Shown here piece by piece: positions 1 to 43,372 of a DNA stretch of 43,372 nt. Under the pieces are notes generated by a model, which did no database searches, had not been told where the DNA came from, and worked only from the letters and a program-made list of their open reading frames with translations. How positions within the stretch are numbered: position 1 is the stretch's first letter; the number at the start of each line of letters is the position of its first letter. This DNA is from Bacillota bacterium (GTDB taxonomy: Bacteria; Bacillota; DTU014), in the NCBI GenBank assembly GCA_012719595.1, contig JAAYAB010000178.1, forward strand, positions 1 to 43,372, given 5' to 3'. Made by a program: the position numbers and the translations under genes.

Positions 1-2307
1 CTGCCTGTCTTGGTCTCTGCAGAACGGTTACAGCAGATCGTGGACTCTATTGAGAGAGATCGCGACAAGAAACTCTTCTACGACAACTACCTGCCGCTCT
101 CTCTGGAGCCTATCGGTCCGGACTACGAACGGGTAGAGATCGCTGACGTCGACAGCCGCTCGTTCTTAGGCGACTACGCTCTCAGGTCTCCCGGCGAGTC
201 GCTCACGACCGCCAAGGAGAGGGAGCTGTTCGCCGCATTGGTCGATACCATCGTCAAGAACAGGAGCGATGTTGACCGGAGGAGCCTGCTGCGGGCTTCC
301 CACGTATCGAAGCTGCTTGAATCTATGAAGCAGGGCGTTGTCATGATGCTCAACCCCAAGGCCTCCCGTTGGGATATCGAAGACATGACGGCGCTCATCA
401 AAGAGACCGGCTACACGCCCTTTGACGTGCAGGATGACCACATAGCCAATGACCTGGATCCTCCGAAGCCCAAGGTCGAGGTGTTCGCGATTCCGATCGA
501 ATACAGGCTGGACGGCCGCGACCTGGTTGTGACGGTTCCGCTGGATGAGATCCAGTATCCTGCTGACGTGTTGGACGCCAGCGGCAACCACGTTTCCTAT
601 CCGCTGCATTCGGTATCGTTGCTCGACTACTTCGGCGCGGCCGACCAGAGCGAAGAGGGGTACATCTTTGTGCCCGACGGCTCAGGAGCGCTGATCTACC
701 TCAACAACGGAAAGCTGTATGCAGAATCGTATCGGCGTCCAGTGTACGGTCCTGACTATGCAACACAGCGGTCCTGGGACGCGCCTACTTCTGAACAGAT
801 TCGCCTCCCGGTCTTTGGGATCAGACGGGGCGATATGAGCCTGGTCGGGATCATCGAAGATGGGGCAGCCAATACCAGAATCAAGGCAGACATAGCCGGG
901 AGAACAAACTCGTACAACACAGTCTGTGCGGAAATCATCGTGATGCCTGAAGGGCGGATCTCGCTGCCGAGCGAGCATTGGAACATCAGAAGCGCATTTC
1001 AGGCGAGGAAGTCGACAGGCAGCGTGTCAGTCCGATATGGCTTCCTCTATGGCGACAGCGCTGATTACGTTGGGATGGCGGCATACTACCGGGATTTCCT
1101 CATGTCGCAATGCGGGCTCGAGCGGGTGGCGACTCAAGGAGACATACCGTTCTTTGTCGAGCTGATCGGCGGTGTGAGCATAAAGACGCCAGTACTAGGC
1201 GCCCCGATCAGGAGGACGGTGCCCCTGACGACTTTTTCGGAGTGCCAGTCTATCATTGGAAGCCTTTTGGATGCGGGCGTCGCAAACATCAGGCTTCGGT
1301 ACTCAGGATGGCTGGAAGGTGGGCTCGACTCTACCTTCCCATACAAGGCAGAAATGGATCGGGCCCCCGGCAGCAGGGAAGAGCTGCGCCGCCTTCAGCA
1401 GTACCTCGCCGAGCAGGGCGTCAACCTCTTCCCGGACGTGTCTCTGCTGAACTCCGGCATGGATGACTTCAACAGACAGAAGGACGCCTCGCGGTTCCTG
1501 GATCGACAGGTGGCCAGGGTCTTTAGGGAAGAGATCACCGAGTACGACTACCAGAGGGGCGGAAAGGACTTCCGCTATGTGGTGTCTCCGGGCAGGCTGG
1601 AGGTGCTGGTGGATCGCTTCTTGGATGGGTATGTAGGTTACGGCTTCGAGGGCATGTCTCTGAGATACATGGGGACTCAGGTCAACTCAGACTTCAACGT
1701 CAAGGCTGTTGTGGACCGCGGTCAGGCGGAGAAGATCATACGGAATCAGCTGAACAAGTTCAGGGAGACAGGACTGGAGCTCATGGTGTCTGGAGGCAAT
1801 GCGCTGGCGCTTCCATATGCCCGCAATGTCGTCGAGGTCCCGACCACTTCGAGTAGGTACTTCATTATGGATGAGACGGTGCCGTTCTATCAGATCGCTG
1901 TTCATGGGCTCATTGACTACGCGGGTGAGCCGATCAACACCTCCGTTGACCCCGGGGAAGCGTTCCTCAAAGCAGCGGAGACAGGCTCGTCGCTTTATTA
2001 CAGGTGGGTGTATCGGGATCCGTCGATTCTGAAAGACACTGAGTTCAGCTATCTGATGTCGGTCTACTACAGGAACTTCGAGTCGTCCGCGGTGGCGCTC
2101 TACGGGAAGCTCAACAGTGTGCTTCGCGATGTGCAGGGACAGCTGATTGTCGATCACGAGCGCCTCGCAGCAGGCGTCTACAAGACGACCTATGAGAACG
2201 GGCGTGCGGTCATTGTCAACTACAACTACGACGCTGTCACGGTTGAGGGAATCGAGGTCGGTGCCCGGGATTTCGTTGCGGTGGCAGGAGGTGAACGGGA
2301 CAAATGA
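1..2307 (+). CDS. DUF5696 domain-containing extracytoplasmic protein, 5' end outside window
   Basis: Large protein of the DUF5696 family, which accompanies sugar ABC transporters in Paenibacillus-like Firmicutes; its molecular role is unknown, and it may help hold or process glycan at the cell surface. The reading frame is open from base 1 and the residues before the first TTG (L-P-V) match the paralogue at 40518-43298, so the true start and signal peptide lie upstream of the window. Shared blocks with the paralogue include EGYIFVPDGSGALIYLN, VNSDF and the C-terminal YENG...VNYN. The conserved Trp codon at 1309-1311 (Y-S-G-W-L) is the position that is TAG in the paralogue. The stop overlaps the next permease start (ATGA), so the two are translationally coupled. 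Family call firm, function unknown. Confidence 0.85.
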   Translation: MPVLVSAERLQQIVDSIERDRDKKLFYDNYLPLSLEPIGPDYERVEIADVDSRSFLGDYALRSPGESLTTAKERELFAALVDTIVKNRSDVDRRSLLRASHVSKLLESMKQGVVMMLNPKASRWDIEDMTALIKETGYTPFDVQDDHIANDLDPPKPKVEVFAIPIEYRLDGRDLVVTVPLDEIQYPADVLDASGNHVSYPLHSVSLLDYFGAADQSEEGYIFVPDGSGALIYLNNGKLYAESYRRPVYGPDYATQRSWDAPTSEQIRLPVFGIRRGDMSLVGIIEDGAANTRIKADIAGRTNSYNTVCAEIIVMPEGRISLPSEHWNIRSAFQARKSTGSVSVRYGFLYGDSADYVGMAAYYRDFLMSQCGLERVATQGDIPFFVELIGGVSIKTPVLGAPIRRTVPLTTFSECQSIIGSLLDAGVANIRLRYSGWLEGGLDSTFPYKAEMDRAPGSREELRRLQQYLAEQGVNLFPDVSLLNSGMDDFNRQKDASRFLDRQVARVFREEITEYDYQRGGKDFRYVVSPGRLEVLVDRFLDGYVGYGFEGMSLRYMGTQVNSDFNVKAVVDRGQAEKIIRNQLNKFRETGLELMVSGGNALALPYARNVVEVPTTSSRYFIMDETVPFYQIAVHGLIDYAGEPINTSVDPGEAFLKAAETGSSLYYRWVYRDPSILKDTEFSYLMSVYYRNFESSAVALYGKLNSVLRDVQGQLIVDHERLAAGVYKTTYENGRAVIVNYNYDAVTVEGIEVGARDFVAVAGGERDK

Positions 2308-36699: not shown

Positions 36700-36990
36700 G
36701 CGAATGGGCTAATGCCATGCCGCAAGACATGCGGACTGCGATCGTGCGGCTGCAACAATGCGGACGATACGGACTGCAACGGTGCGACAGCAATGAGGCG
36801 GACTGCAATGATCTGGGATCAGGACTAGGGCGAGCACGCACTGTGACGAGGGCGGCAGCGCGCCGCTGGGACGCCTGCCGCCCGGCTGCACGAGCAGGAA
36901 TAGCATAAGTATGTGTCCAATGTAATCCCTGGAATCGCTGCAAACAGCGCAGGTGGCGCCTGTTTTCCATTGGGCAGAAAGGAGTTCGAG
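36700..36990. repeat. Degenerate repeat in the gap between GH4 and lacI-type genes
   Basis: From about 36728 to 36815 units of 22-26 bp with the core GCGGACTGCAAYGRTGCG follow each other three to four times. The remaining gap has no gene or clear promoter. GAAAGGAG at 36977-36984 is the binding site for the regulator gene. Confidence 0.55.
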
Positions 36991-38043
36991 ATGGCCAATA
37001 TCAGGCAAGTAGCTCGAGAAGCCGGAGTGTCGATAGCGACAGTGTCAGCCGTCATGAACAACACGAAGGCGGTTAGCCCTGAGCTGACCAAGCGGGTTCT
37101 GCAGGCCATCGAGAAGCTCGACTATCGTCCAAACCTCCTGGCAAAGGCGCTGCTGGGCAAGAATTCCGGCCTGATCGCGTTCCTGGTTCCGTCTATGACC
37201 AACCCCTTCTATCCTGACCTGCTCGAGGCTGTAGAACATGCCGCCAGCGAGCGGAACTACGGCGTCTTCATTTGCACGACTCACCGACAGGTGGACCGAG
37301 TGGACTACTACAGAGAGCGCCTTCTGGGAATGAACATCGATGGCGCTATGGTCACTCTGTCAAGCGAAATCGTCAAGTCGCAGCTCGTCCAGGACTTCCT
37401 GAGCCATGGCATCAAGGTCGTAGGCATAACCGGCGGCAGGGTCATGCCTGAGATCGACTGTTACGTGCTGGACGACGAGACGAGTACCCAGACTGTGTGC
37501 AGCTATTTGTCGGGGCTGGGGCATAGAGAAGTGGTCTACCTAGGCCCTGATCCTGCCAAGAGCACTACCAGTTCCCTTCGGTATAAGGGAATCCAGAACG
37601 CGATCAAAGGACTGCTTCCGACCGTCAAGATGGAGTTGGCGACGTCGTTCTGCACCTACAGCGAAGGCTCTGCCTATCAGGCGGCGATCTCATTGCTGGC
37701 AAGCGGTCGTTCGTTCTCAGCTATCATCTGCTACAACGATCAGGTTGCCGTCGGAGTCGTCAACGCTCTCAAAGACCAGGGGCTAGACGTGCCTGACGAT
37801 GTCTCAGTAATCGGATTTGACGATACCGTTGCTTCGTACACCCGGCCTGCGCTGACCACAATGGCAGTGGATAGGAAGGGGCTTGCAGAAGCAGCGTCTA
37901 CCAGGCTCTTTACTCTCATTGAGTCCTCAAATGGCATCGAGCCTACCGTTGTGAAGATACCAATGTCTCTGGTGGTCCGCGGTTCTACGGCGGCGGGCCC
38001 GTATCGAAGCAGACCAGTCCGACCTGCAGAGATGCCAGGATAG
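36991..38043 (+). CDS. LacI-family transcriptional regulator
   Basis: Repressor or activator of 350 aa. The helix-turn-helix is at residues 3-24 (NIRQVAREAGVSIATVSAVMN) and the hinge helix lies near 46-58 (YRPNLLAKALLGKNSG). The effector-binding domain is a periplasmic-binding-protein fold beginning LIAFLVPSMTNPFYPDLLEAV and containing AIICYNDQVAVGVVNAL and DVSVIGFDDTVASYTRPALTTM. ATG 36991 follows GAAAGGAG by 6 bases. The AACATGTT-centred palindromes before the GH4 gene, after this gene and before the NHL/Yip1 operon make it the likely regulator of both flanking units; the sugar effector is unknown. Confidence 0.95.
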   Translation: MANIRQVAREAGVSIATVSAVMNNTKAVSPELTKRVLQAIEKLDYRPNLLAKALLGKNSGLIAFLVPSMTNPFYPDLLEAVEHAASERNYGVFICTTHRQVDRVDYYRERLLGMNIDGAMVTLSSEIVKSQLVQDFLSHGIKVVGITGGRVMPEIDCYVLDDETSTQTVCSYLSGLGHREVVYLGPDPAKSTTSSLRYKGIQNAIKGLLPTVKMELATSFCTYSEGSAYQAAISLLASGRSFSAIICYNDQVAVGVVNALKDQGLDVPDDVSVIGFDDTVASYTRPALTTMAVDRKGLAEAASTRLFTLIESSNGIEPTVVKIPMSLVVRGSTAAGPYRSRPVRPAEMPG

Positions 38044-38332: not shown

Positions 38333-40513
38333 ATGCTATCAAGACATCGGATTCACGGTGCATTCATTGCCGCGGCTGTGGTTCTGGCTGCGATCAGCAT
38401 AGCGACTCTGCCTTGCCTGGCCATAGTTCCATATTAGAGCTATACCTACGACTTTCGGCGCGAAGCCACGCCGTCTCCATTGCCCTACGTCCCGGCCGAG
38501 GTGTTGGATGGGTTCTCGCTCGGTGTCGGGCCGCTGAAGGAACCGGGCGATCTGTTTGTCGACGACGCCGGCCACATCTACCTTCTGGACACGGGCAACA
38601 ACCGCCTGATATGCCTGGACTCATCGATGAATGTCACGAGAGTCATATCCCAGTTTGACAACGACGGCAAGCCGGATGGGTTCAATGGCCCGAGAGGGGT
38701 CTTCGTCACCTCTCAGGGCGACATCTACGTTGCTGATACCGGCAACGGAAGAGTGGTCATCCTTGACTCGCAGGGGCAGTTTGTTCGCCTCATAGGCGAG
38801 CCGGTGAGCGACGAGGAAGGGATCATTCCGGAGGACTATCGCTACAAGCCAATCCGGCTCGTCGTCGATGTTGCCAAGCGGGTATTTGTTGTCGTCGAAG
38901 GTGAGTATGAGGGCATTGTCCAGTTTGATGAACAGGGCACGTTCCGCAGGTTCTTCGGAGCACCCAGAGTGGTGCCGCGCCTGGCGGACGTCATTTGGTC
39001 GAAGCTGGCCACGAGGGAACAGCGTGAGAGGATGGCCCTATTCCTCCCAACCGAATACAGCAGTGTTGATCTGGATGACAGAGGCTTCATCTATGCGACT
39101 ATAGCTACAGGTGATTTGGCGAGGAGCCAGCCCATCTGGCGCCTCAATCCCGGAGGCGAGAATGTCCTCAGAGCGCTGGGCTTCATGGTCCCGAGGGGAG
39201 ACAAACCGACAACGTGGGAAGAGAACCAGCAGGGAAAGCCGCCCTCCAAATTCGTCGACATCGTGGCCAGAGAACATGGTATCTATAGTGGGCTGGACCT
39301 CAATCGAGGCAGGGTGTTCACCTACGACGCAGAGGGTCACCTGCTGTACGAGTTTGGCGCCAGGGGTTATCAGAAGGGCGCCGTGGTCAAACCGACAGCC
39401 ATTGAAGAGCTAAACGGAAGACTCCTGATCCTTGATGCTGGCACCAACTCGGTTACAGTGTACGAACCGACCGAGTACGCGATATCCATACACTTGGCGA
39501 TGGATTACTACTACCGCGGAGACTATGCGAACTCGGATCTTTGGTGGCGAAACGTTCTGCGGCTCAATGCGAACAGCGATAGAGCGTACACAGGTGTCGG
39601 ACTGACCTACATGATGAACGGCCAGTTTGCTGAGGCCATGAAGTATTTCAAGCTGGGCGACAACAGGCTGGGCTACTCCAGGGCCTATGCGTACTACCGA
39701 AGCGACGTAGTGCGGGAACACTTCTCCCTCGTCGCTACTGTGTTCGTCGGTCTCCTCGTACTCCTGTCTGTCCTGAGAAGGCTCGGCGTCTTCCGCACAC
39801 TGCGGCGAAAGGTTGGACGCGTATACAGGGCCTTTGATTTGTGGTGTCTCCGCCGCGGCGGTTGGATATCCGGAGTGTGGGAGACGACTAAGGAGACGGG
39901 CAGGGGCCTCCATTACGCCCTACACGTCATCGTCCATCCGTTCGACGGGTTCTGGGATTTGAAGTATGAGAAGCGAGGGAACGCGTATTCGGCGACGGTC
40001 ATCCTGCTGCTGGCGTGCTCCAGCTACGTCTTTCTGAGGCAGTACATGGGGTTCATCTTCAACACGTCTGACCCCGCCGCGTTGAACATATACAGTGAGT
40101 TCGCCAGTCTCCTCGTTCCATTTTTCCTGTGGTGCATCATCAACTGGTCGCTGACCACGCTGTTGGACGGCAAGGGCGGGGTGAAGGACATCTACATAGC
40201 GTCCTGCTATGCGTTGACTCCATTGGTGTTGATCAACTTCCCAATCACGGTCCTGAGCAACTACCTGATCATGCAGGAGAGCACCTTCCTGGTCGTTTTC
40301 CTTGTCTCTGGCGTGATCTGGACGGGTGCATTGCTGTTCCTGGGCACTATGGTCACCCATCACTATGACGGCATCAAGACCGTATACACGAGCGTGCTCA
40401 CGGGTGCAGGCATTATCATCGTGATCTTTGTCGGAGTGTTCTTCTTCGTCCTGATGGATCAGGTGGCTATGTTCTTCGGCGATATCATAAAGGAACTCAC
40501 ACTGAGGATGTGA
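38333..40513 (+). pseudogene. NHL-repeat / TPR / Yip1-domain membrane protein with in-frame TAG at 38435
   Basis: Read through, this is a 726-residue protein. Residues 1-31 form a signal peptide ending LPCLA. NHL beta-propeller repeats follow (about 50-345; DLFVDDAGHIYLLDTGNNR, GDIYVADTGNGRVVILD). A TPR-like pair comes next (YYRGDYANSDLWWRNVLRLN) and then a membrane part of one helix plus a C-terminal Yip1-like block of about five helices. Proteins of this kind sit beside DUF5696 and sugar permeases in Paenibacillus-like operons. TAG at 38435-38437, just after the signal peptide (P-Y-stop-S-Y-T-Y-D), separates export from the body; the next in-frame start, TTG 38480, would have no signal peptide or binding site. 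The ATG has AAGGAG 12 bases upstream, a long spacing. Confidence 0.82.
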
Positions 40514-40517
40514 ACCC

Positions 40518-43298
40518 ATGGGAGCAGTGCCCTCTAAGCAATCAGCGATAGCCGCCGCGCTTGCGGTTTTGTTGGTGGCTGTCTCCGCTGCAGCCTCCGG
40601 CAGCAATGATCTGGACAGCAGATTGAACGGATTTGAGATGCGCTCTCAAAATGAGTATCTCGAGCTTTACTACTCCGAAGACACTGCCGAGATTGCTGTC
40701 AGGGTGCGAGACAACGGGGCTGTCTGGTTCTCAAACCCGCATGACAGAAACAGTGCTGAGAAGATCGCCAAAGGCGCAGCCAAGGACAAACTTGGGGCTC
40801 AGTTCTCGTTGTCGTATTTCACTCCAAGAGACGAGTTGAAGGATCTGGACAGCTACAACGACAGCGTCAAACATCGGCAATATGAAGCGATCAATATCGA
40901 CAACGGCCTCAGGGTCGAGTATACCCTCGGCAAGGAATGGAACGACGACGCCTATCTGCCCGTGATCATGACCCAGGCGACCTTCGACGAGCTGATTGTC
41001 TCGAAGATGGCGAAACGGGACGCCGATCTGTTCCGCAACAGCTACGACCGTGTATTGATGGTCGAGGTGAGCGATGACTACCCCGCGATAGAGGTCTACA
41101 ATCTCAATCCCAACGTGCTCGGCAACTACACGCTGATCTCGCCTGGGACCACACTGACCGAGAGAAACCGCAAGAAGCTGGTTGAGGGCTTCATTGATCA
41201 GATAGTTTCGCATCGCAAGGATCTGGGCAGCAGAGCGAACATGACGCCTGACCATATTCCTGAGCTGGTGCGGCAGGAACCCGTGTATGTTCTCAAGACT
41301 GGGCTTCGGGCCTGGGATATCGACGACATGAGGGCGCTCCTCAAGGAGTCAGGCGCCTCGCCTGAAGAGATTCAGCGCGACTACGATATCTTCGGTCTCG
41401 ACAAGTCCGAGCGCAACCCTGTGGTGTTTCGTGCTGCGCTCGAGTACACGCTCGACGGCGACTGTCTCGTCGTCAGGGTGCGGGCCGCAGATCTGGAGTA
41501 CCCCAAGGACGTACCGGGTGAGTTTGGAGGGCCGGTGACGTATCCGCTTCACGCCATACGGCTCCTCGAGTACTTCGGTGCCGCCGGAGCACAAGCAGAG
41601 GGATACATCTTCGTGCCGGACGGCTCGGGAGCCCTCATATACCTCAATAGCGGCAAGGTTCAAATGCCTGCATACGGTGCATGGGTCTATGGACTTGACC
41701 GGGCACTTGATCCGCCTGCAAACCGGGACACCCTTACTGAACAGGTATACCTGCCGGTCTTTGGAATGAAACAAGGCGCGAATGCCATGGTTGCGATTAT
41801 CGAGAGCGGACGGGCAGCGGCGAGGATCAGCGCAGACATCGCCGGCAGGAGCGACTCGTACAACAAGGTGTTCGCCGCGTTCACCGTCATTCCAAAGGGC
41901 ATTACCTCCCTTGAATCGTGGACTCAATGGCGCCTGGGAGTCAGCGGTGTCCGACAGAGCATTAACATCTACCAGTCAAGACCCTTCATGGAAGACATCG
42001 TGGTAAGGTATAAGTTCCTGCAGAATGAAGACGCGTCCTATTCTGGAATGGCTCGCGCTTACCAGGACTACCTGGTGAGCAGGGGTGTGCTGAGCCGTCT
42101 GTCGGGCGGTGACGACCTTACGTTCCTGTTGGAGTTGGTGGGATCGATCGCCGTCAAGCAGCCCGTACTCGGAGCGCCGCGGGAAGTGGTCAGGCCACTT
42201 ACCACCTTTGACCAGGCTCGAGAGATTGTCGACAGGTTCGCCGCTGTTGGCGTAGACGAGGTCGCACTGCGCTTTTCGGGCTAGCTAAAGGGAGGGTTCT
42301 ATCACTCGTTTCCCGACAGGATGCGAGTGGAGAAGACGGTAGGTGATCTGGGCGCTCTGGATCGGCTGTGCAGCTACCTGGAGAGCAAAGGCGTGGACCT
42401 GTATCCGGATGTCGCGTTCCTCGAGGTCTACAGGAACACTCTGCTGGATGGCTTTGTGACTATGAGAGACGCGGCCCGTTACCTCAACAAAGACACCGCT
42501 ACATCCCACAACTTCAATCCAATCAACGCTTTGCACGAAGGGTGGAAGGCCTTGCCGATACTCTCTGTCCGCCGGCTTCCGTCTGTGATCCAAGGCTTCC
42601 TCGATGGGTTTTCCAGGACATCCGCGCCGGGCCTGTCACTCAGGCAGATGGGGCGGCAGGTCAACTCGGATTTCCGCGAGGATCCTAGCATTCTGGTCGA
42701 TAGAGAGCAGGCTGTCGCGATCCTTGAGGAGCAGATGAGGATACTCGCTGAAGATCACAAGCTCAAGCTGCTGATTGAGGGTGGAAATGACTACTCGCTG
42801 AAGTACGTTTCTTTGGTGGCAAGGGCACCGATGTCGAGCAGCGAGTACAATCTGATAGACAGGTCAGTGCCTTTCTACCAGATGGTGCTCCATGGCTACG
42901 TGAACTACGCGGGCGCCCCCCTGAACCACGCTCAGGATCTCAGGTATGAGAGGCTGAAGACCATCGAGTACGGCGCCATGCCATACTATCAACTTATCTA
43001 TGGAGAGCCGTCTGAGGTCAAACGGACCGAGGTCAATGATCTCTTTTCGATGGGATTCGAGGATTGGATACATGAGGCCGGCCAGTTCTACGCAGAGGCA
43101 AATCGGATTCTGGCTGATGTGCAGGATCAGAGGATTGTAGAACACCGCGAGCTCGCCGCTGGGCTGTTCCAGACGGTCTATGAGAACGGCCAGTCCGTTT
43201 TCGTCAACTACAATAGGGAGGACGTGGCAGTCGGGGATGTCGTCGTGCCCGGGCGTGGCTACGTGCTGGTAGAGGGGGCTCTGGCCAGTGAATGGTAA
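40518..43298 (+). pseudogene. DUF5696 domain-containing protein with in-frame TAG at 42282
   Basis: Paralogue of the gene at 1-2307, 926 residues if read through. It begins with a signal peptide (about residues 1-29, AALAVLLVAVSAAASG) and an N-terminal domain ending near LPVIMTQ. The DUF5696 region shares EGYIFVPDGSGALIYLN and VNSDF with the paralogue. At 42282-42284 a TAG replaces the conserved Trp of the Y/F-S-G-W-L motif, and the same frame continues with L-K-G-G-F for another 338 codons to TAA. The first 588 residues would lack the C-terminal third. It starts four bases after the NHL/Yip1 gene and overlaps the next permease start. Single-base G-to-A mutation, readthrough or sequence error are all possible. 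Confidence 0.88.
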
Positions 43299-43372
43299 GC
43301 GATCCGTACTGAGACTGTCACTGGGACAGAAGAGGAATCTTGGCGGGTGGCTGTTCATATCGCCCTTCCTGC
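43288..43372 (+). CDS. Carbohydrate ABC transporter permease, N-terminal fragment at window edge
   Basis: A GTG at 43288 overlaps the DUF5696 stop and opens a frame running off the window: NGKRSVLRLSLGQKRNLGG and WLFISPFL. This is the usual N terminus of MalF/UgpA-type permeases, where a basic segment precedes the first helix. An AGAGGGGG site lies about 10 bases before it. The order DUF5696 then permease repeats that at 1-3212. Only 28 codons are visible, so the call rests on the motif and the synteny. Confidence 0.72.
   Translation, partial: MNGKRSVLRLSLGQKRNLGGWLFISPFL

Follow-up and report, generated by a model that had tools for sequence, protein, structure and literature searches.

An in-frame TAG interrupts one DUF5696 gene at codon 589 in the stretch of DNA analysed here, and this is most likely an ordinary nonsense mutation in one copy of a multi-copy family, or else an artefact of assembly or sequencing. 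Of these, we prefer a recent single-base substitution that turned a Trp codon into TAG in one DUF5696 paralogue, leaving a truncated and probably inactive product, and give this reading a probability of roughly 0.7. The window (the whole stretch, 43,372 nucleotides) is the entire contig C81 of a 2.99-Mb genome in 313 contigs, estimated to be 94% complete. The features discussed below are as follows:

1 to 2307, forward strand: intact DUF5696 paralogue, about 40% identical to the interrupted gene, with its 5' end on contig C244 and TGG at 1309-1311
36913 to 38043, forward strand: LacI-family regulator of the locus
38480 to 40513, forward strand: NHL/TPR/Yip1-domain membrane protein, intact, the upstream neighbour
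40518 to 42284, forward strand: 5' part of the interrupted DUF5696 gene, 588 codons to the TAG, predicted to encode an N-terminal signal or membrane helix, a beta-sandwich region and the first strands of the barrel
42282 to 42284, forward strand: the in-frame TAG, codon 589, where relatives have the Trp of a Y/F-S/T-G-W-x-x-G-G motif
42285 to 43298, forward strand: open continuation, 337 codons and TAA, predicted to encode the rest of the barrel and a C-terminal beta domain

An in-frame stop at a conserved tryptophan

Read as an open reading frame, the gene has 926 codons (40518-43298), of which the TAG at 42282-42284 is number 589, and past it the frame runs through 337 sense codons to a TAA at 43296-43298. 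The initial annotation was right that this part is open, although its count of 338 codons includes the stop. Judged from the sequence, the interruption is not a chance effect of open reading frames, because this frame, unlike the other two forward frames, has coding-like codon usage both ahead of the TAG and past it, and because PF18952 (DUF5696) spans the TAG as one Pfam domain (E = 3.7e-185). The profile match, with X at the stop, scores 617 bits over residues 284-915 and stays above the curated cut-off along the whole domain.

The TAG had been described as lying at an otherwise conserved Trp, and this was borne out: in tblastn alignments Trp occupies the corresponding position at 134 of the 139 loci compared (those of the source genome and its relatives, with 80 from named genomes), and the paralogue in the window does carry TGG at 1309-1311. 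An alignment of the family at the motif, which had been proposed as a check, likewise gave 99.1% Trp among 118 near-full-length members. Of the 139 loci, the five without Trp are L160 and L064 (Ala), L182 (Cys), L022 (Asn) and the window gene with its stop, L064 and L022 being very distant matches. Since Ala (twice), Cys and Asn occur in relatives, the Trp is, as far as the alignments indicate, strongly conserved, yet not absolutely required. L160 and L182 are otherwise good DUF5696 members without the conserved Trp.

No internal stop was found in the other DUF5696 matches of the same genome (23 matches in all, including pieces of single genes cut by contig ends), nor in any of the 57 matches above the cut-off in a survey of 38 genomes from the phylum, which scored at most three matches per genome and, in the source genome, three other copies. 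Three further tblastn matches contain a stop, which sits at the natural C-terminus, and in the distant match G023 one search gives one TGA where the Pfam search reports none. Scanning the genome contigs with the gene itself revealed no close orthologues, and the search of relatives extended to a single further genome from this family.

Apart from the stop, the gene shows no sign of decay. Where the family is at least 90% conserved, the gene departs from 2 of 83 columns and keeps 81, with one change among the 58 columns before the stop and one among the 25 after it, which is no more than intact relatives show. The earlier suggestion that the change is recent or tolerated is supported. Relaxed constraint is expected only after some time and is not required of a recent nonsense event, and the preserved sequence would be expected alike if the mutation is recent, if the TAG is an artefact or if the gene is still translated. 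An intact downstream half is also expected from an artefact or from read-through, and as the material is a single genome, the TAG could stem from a sequencing, consensus or strain-mixture error.

TAG as a terminator in the source genome

TAG acts as an ordinary stop in the source genome, since, of 473 coding frames in 586 kb, 180 end in TAG, 243 in TGA and 50 in TAA. The tally was made mechanically on frames of 100 aa or more whose codon usage is coding-like, rather than on curated genes, and covers stretches that amount to about a fifth of the genome. Among frames of at least 250 aa in the first 261 kb, TAG is the terminator of 66 out of 147. The share of 38% of coding-like frames looks high, an impression formed without comparison to relatives. 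The 586-kb screen for interrupted genes listed 42 in-frame continuations, the window gene included. Ten others were scanned with Pfam: in seven, which look like normal boundaries between genes, no Pfam domain extends over the stop, and three are without a family. Most of the 31 outside the Pfam scan have a possible start codon nearby.

Either a G-to-A change or suppression with Trp, Gln or another residue had been proposed to account for the TAG. The plain nonsense substitution remains, or an assembly or sequencing artefact, which the initial annotation had itself given as a refuting outcome, whereas suppression is unsupported because TAG is a common terminator, no CUA anticodon occurs among the 39 tRNA genes found and typed in the MAG (estimated 94% complete), PylS was not found at the family cut-off of 178 bits (best match 26) and the sequence around the TAG shows no conspicuous local RNA structure (z = -1.6).

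RF1 was not found in the MAG, in which the single release-factor match is RF2 by its SPF motif, whereas RF1 is present in 20 of 20 relatives searched. In the sister genome G001 the gene order is what we take, naming the genes from their sequences, to be DUF1385-like protein, prfA, prmC and Sua5-like protein. In the source genome, prmC is cut at residue 214 by the start of contig C233 (locus L230, 1-241), and the Sua5-like gene comes next as in G001. The DUF1385-like gene, the other neighbour of prfA in G001, was not found in the source genome. Because C233 starts inside the usual neighbour of prfA and the DUF1385-like gene is missing as well, the RF1 gene most likely falls in an assembly gap.

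Predicted fold and consequences of the probable truncation

The read-through protein was modelled from a 30-sequence alignment, with Trp put in place of the TAG solely to predict the fold (mean pLDDT 89, pTM 0.86), and in the model codon 589 comes directly after the barrel strand 582-587. The best Foldseek matches are 5opq, 5wzn and 5wzq, with TM-scores of 0.68-0.74 normalised by target, and weak profile matches to the same GH129-like chains cover the Trp region; DUF5696 is thus predicted to have a GH129-like glycosidase fold. No paper naming the family was found in the literature searched. According to the model, the stop would take away the C-terminal domain and all of the barrel beyond its early strands. 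Essential acidic residues in the matched enzymes are Asp435 in NagBb and Asp486 and Glu517 in the Zobellia enzyme (PMC5698469). As these lie well C-terminal of the segment aligned to the Trp, the 588-residue product should be without counterparts of these residues, as estimated from the segment alignment and not residue by residue.

It is likely that the conserved Trp codon became TAG by a recent single-base change in the organism or strain sampled, and that ordinary termination at UAG would give a 588-residue product with only the N-terminal beta-sandwich and the first strands of the predicted GH129-like barrel. This copy is probably inactive, because only the first strands of the barrel would remain. 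The loss would plausibly be tolerated, as the genome (G000, loci L001-L022) has some 15-20 DUF5696 genes in 3 Mb and the two permeases downstream are intact.

Genomic surroundings

The window shares exactly 141 bases with contig C290 at its end (43232-43372) and as many with C244 at its start (1-141), so C244, C81 and C290 are probably consecutive in the assembly graph. The locus reads LacI regulator, NHL/Yip1 protein and DUF5696, followed on C290 by two ABC permeases and a Melibiase_2 protein, and DUF5696 is its only interrupted gene. The pairing with an NHL/TPR/Yip1 protein upstream recurs for at least one further DUF5696 paralogue (contig C11).

At least two DUF5696 genes follow an NHL/Yip1 membrane protein, and the copies on the window contig adjoin ABC sugar permeases. 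This recurrence with one or the other partner suggests a repeated uptake module.

Alternative explanations

A sequencing or assembly artefact, or a minor-strain allele picked by the assembler while the gene is intact in the population, is unlikely, though the most probable of the alternatives. The 141-base overlaps with C290 and C244 resemble those of a de Bruijn graph that breaks at its branches, which points to variation or repeats at both contig ends, the nearer being 1.1 kb from the TAG, and the gene is otherwise undamaged. However, the bin holds no alternative allele of the stretch, and contigs of de Bruijn graphs usually need repeated k-mer support, which counts against an artefact. We consider it very unlikely that the TAG is read through or suppressed (by Trp, Gln, Tyr or another residue) so that some full-length enzyme is made. 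The open and conserved downstream frame would agree with this, as would in-frame stops with conserved downstream frames reported in bacteria (PMC7918605), but it would have to occur at a major normal stop, in a genome in which neither a suppressor tRNA nor PylS was detected, and no second DUF5696 member has TAG at this position.

Still less probable is a split gene, in which translation restarts at the ATG at 42321 and the two polypeptides assemble. This ATG, 36 bases past the TAG, does open a 325-codon frame, and the purine-rich AAGGGAGGG lies between the two, but about 24 bases separate the purine run from the ATG, more than is usual for a ribosome-binding site, and the run encodes the conserved Gly-Gly of the motif. 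Moreover, the break would cut the barrel after its early strands, and no relative is split at this position. Genome-wide reassignment of TAG with loss of RF1 was also taken seriously given the release-factor result, but was rejected on the share of frames that end in TAG together with the probable placement of prfA in a gap, and its probability is negligible.

Comparison with known systems

As one more interrupted gene, this case has little significance beyond a worked check, namely that a stop in place of a conserved residue can be explained without recoding once terminator usage, tRNAs, the release factor with its gap and a family survey are considered. A by-product concerns DUF5696 itself, an unnamed family, here beside sugar transporters, for which the GH129-like glycosidase fold is predicted. 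The GH129 and GH129-like glycosidases (NagBb 5wzn, Zobellia DagB 5opq) are its best fold matches, with a Foldseek probability of 1.00, but identity to DUF5696 is only about 12%, and DUF5696 proteins are putative glycosidases.

Pyrrolysine-type amber decoding shares with the window gene the in-frame TAG, but differs in requiring what the searches did not detect here (PylS, CUA tRNA), and in the window gene the site is Trp in relatives and TAG is a common terminator. Conserved bacterial genes with in-frame stops have been described before, and a brief tolerated read-through has been suggested for them (PMC7918605); those genes resemble the present one in a TAG inside a frame conserved downstream, whereas here the stop occurs in one genome only and no orthologue shares it. 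Bacterial nonsense pseudogenes, from which the window gene has no known difference, combine the same single in-frame stop in a conserved frame with a large paralogue set and an open downstream frame, and here too the intact relatives have a sense codon at the site and TAG functions as a stop in the source genome.
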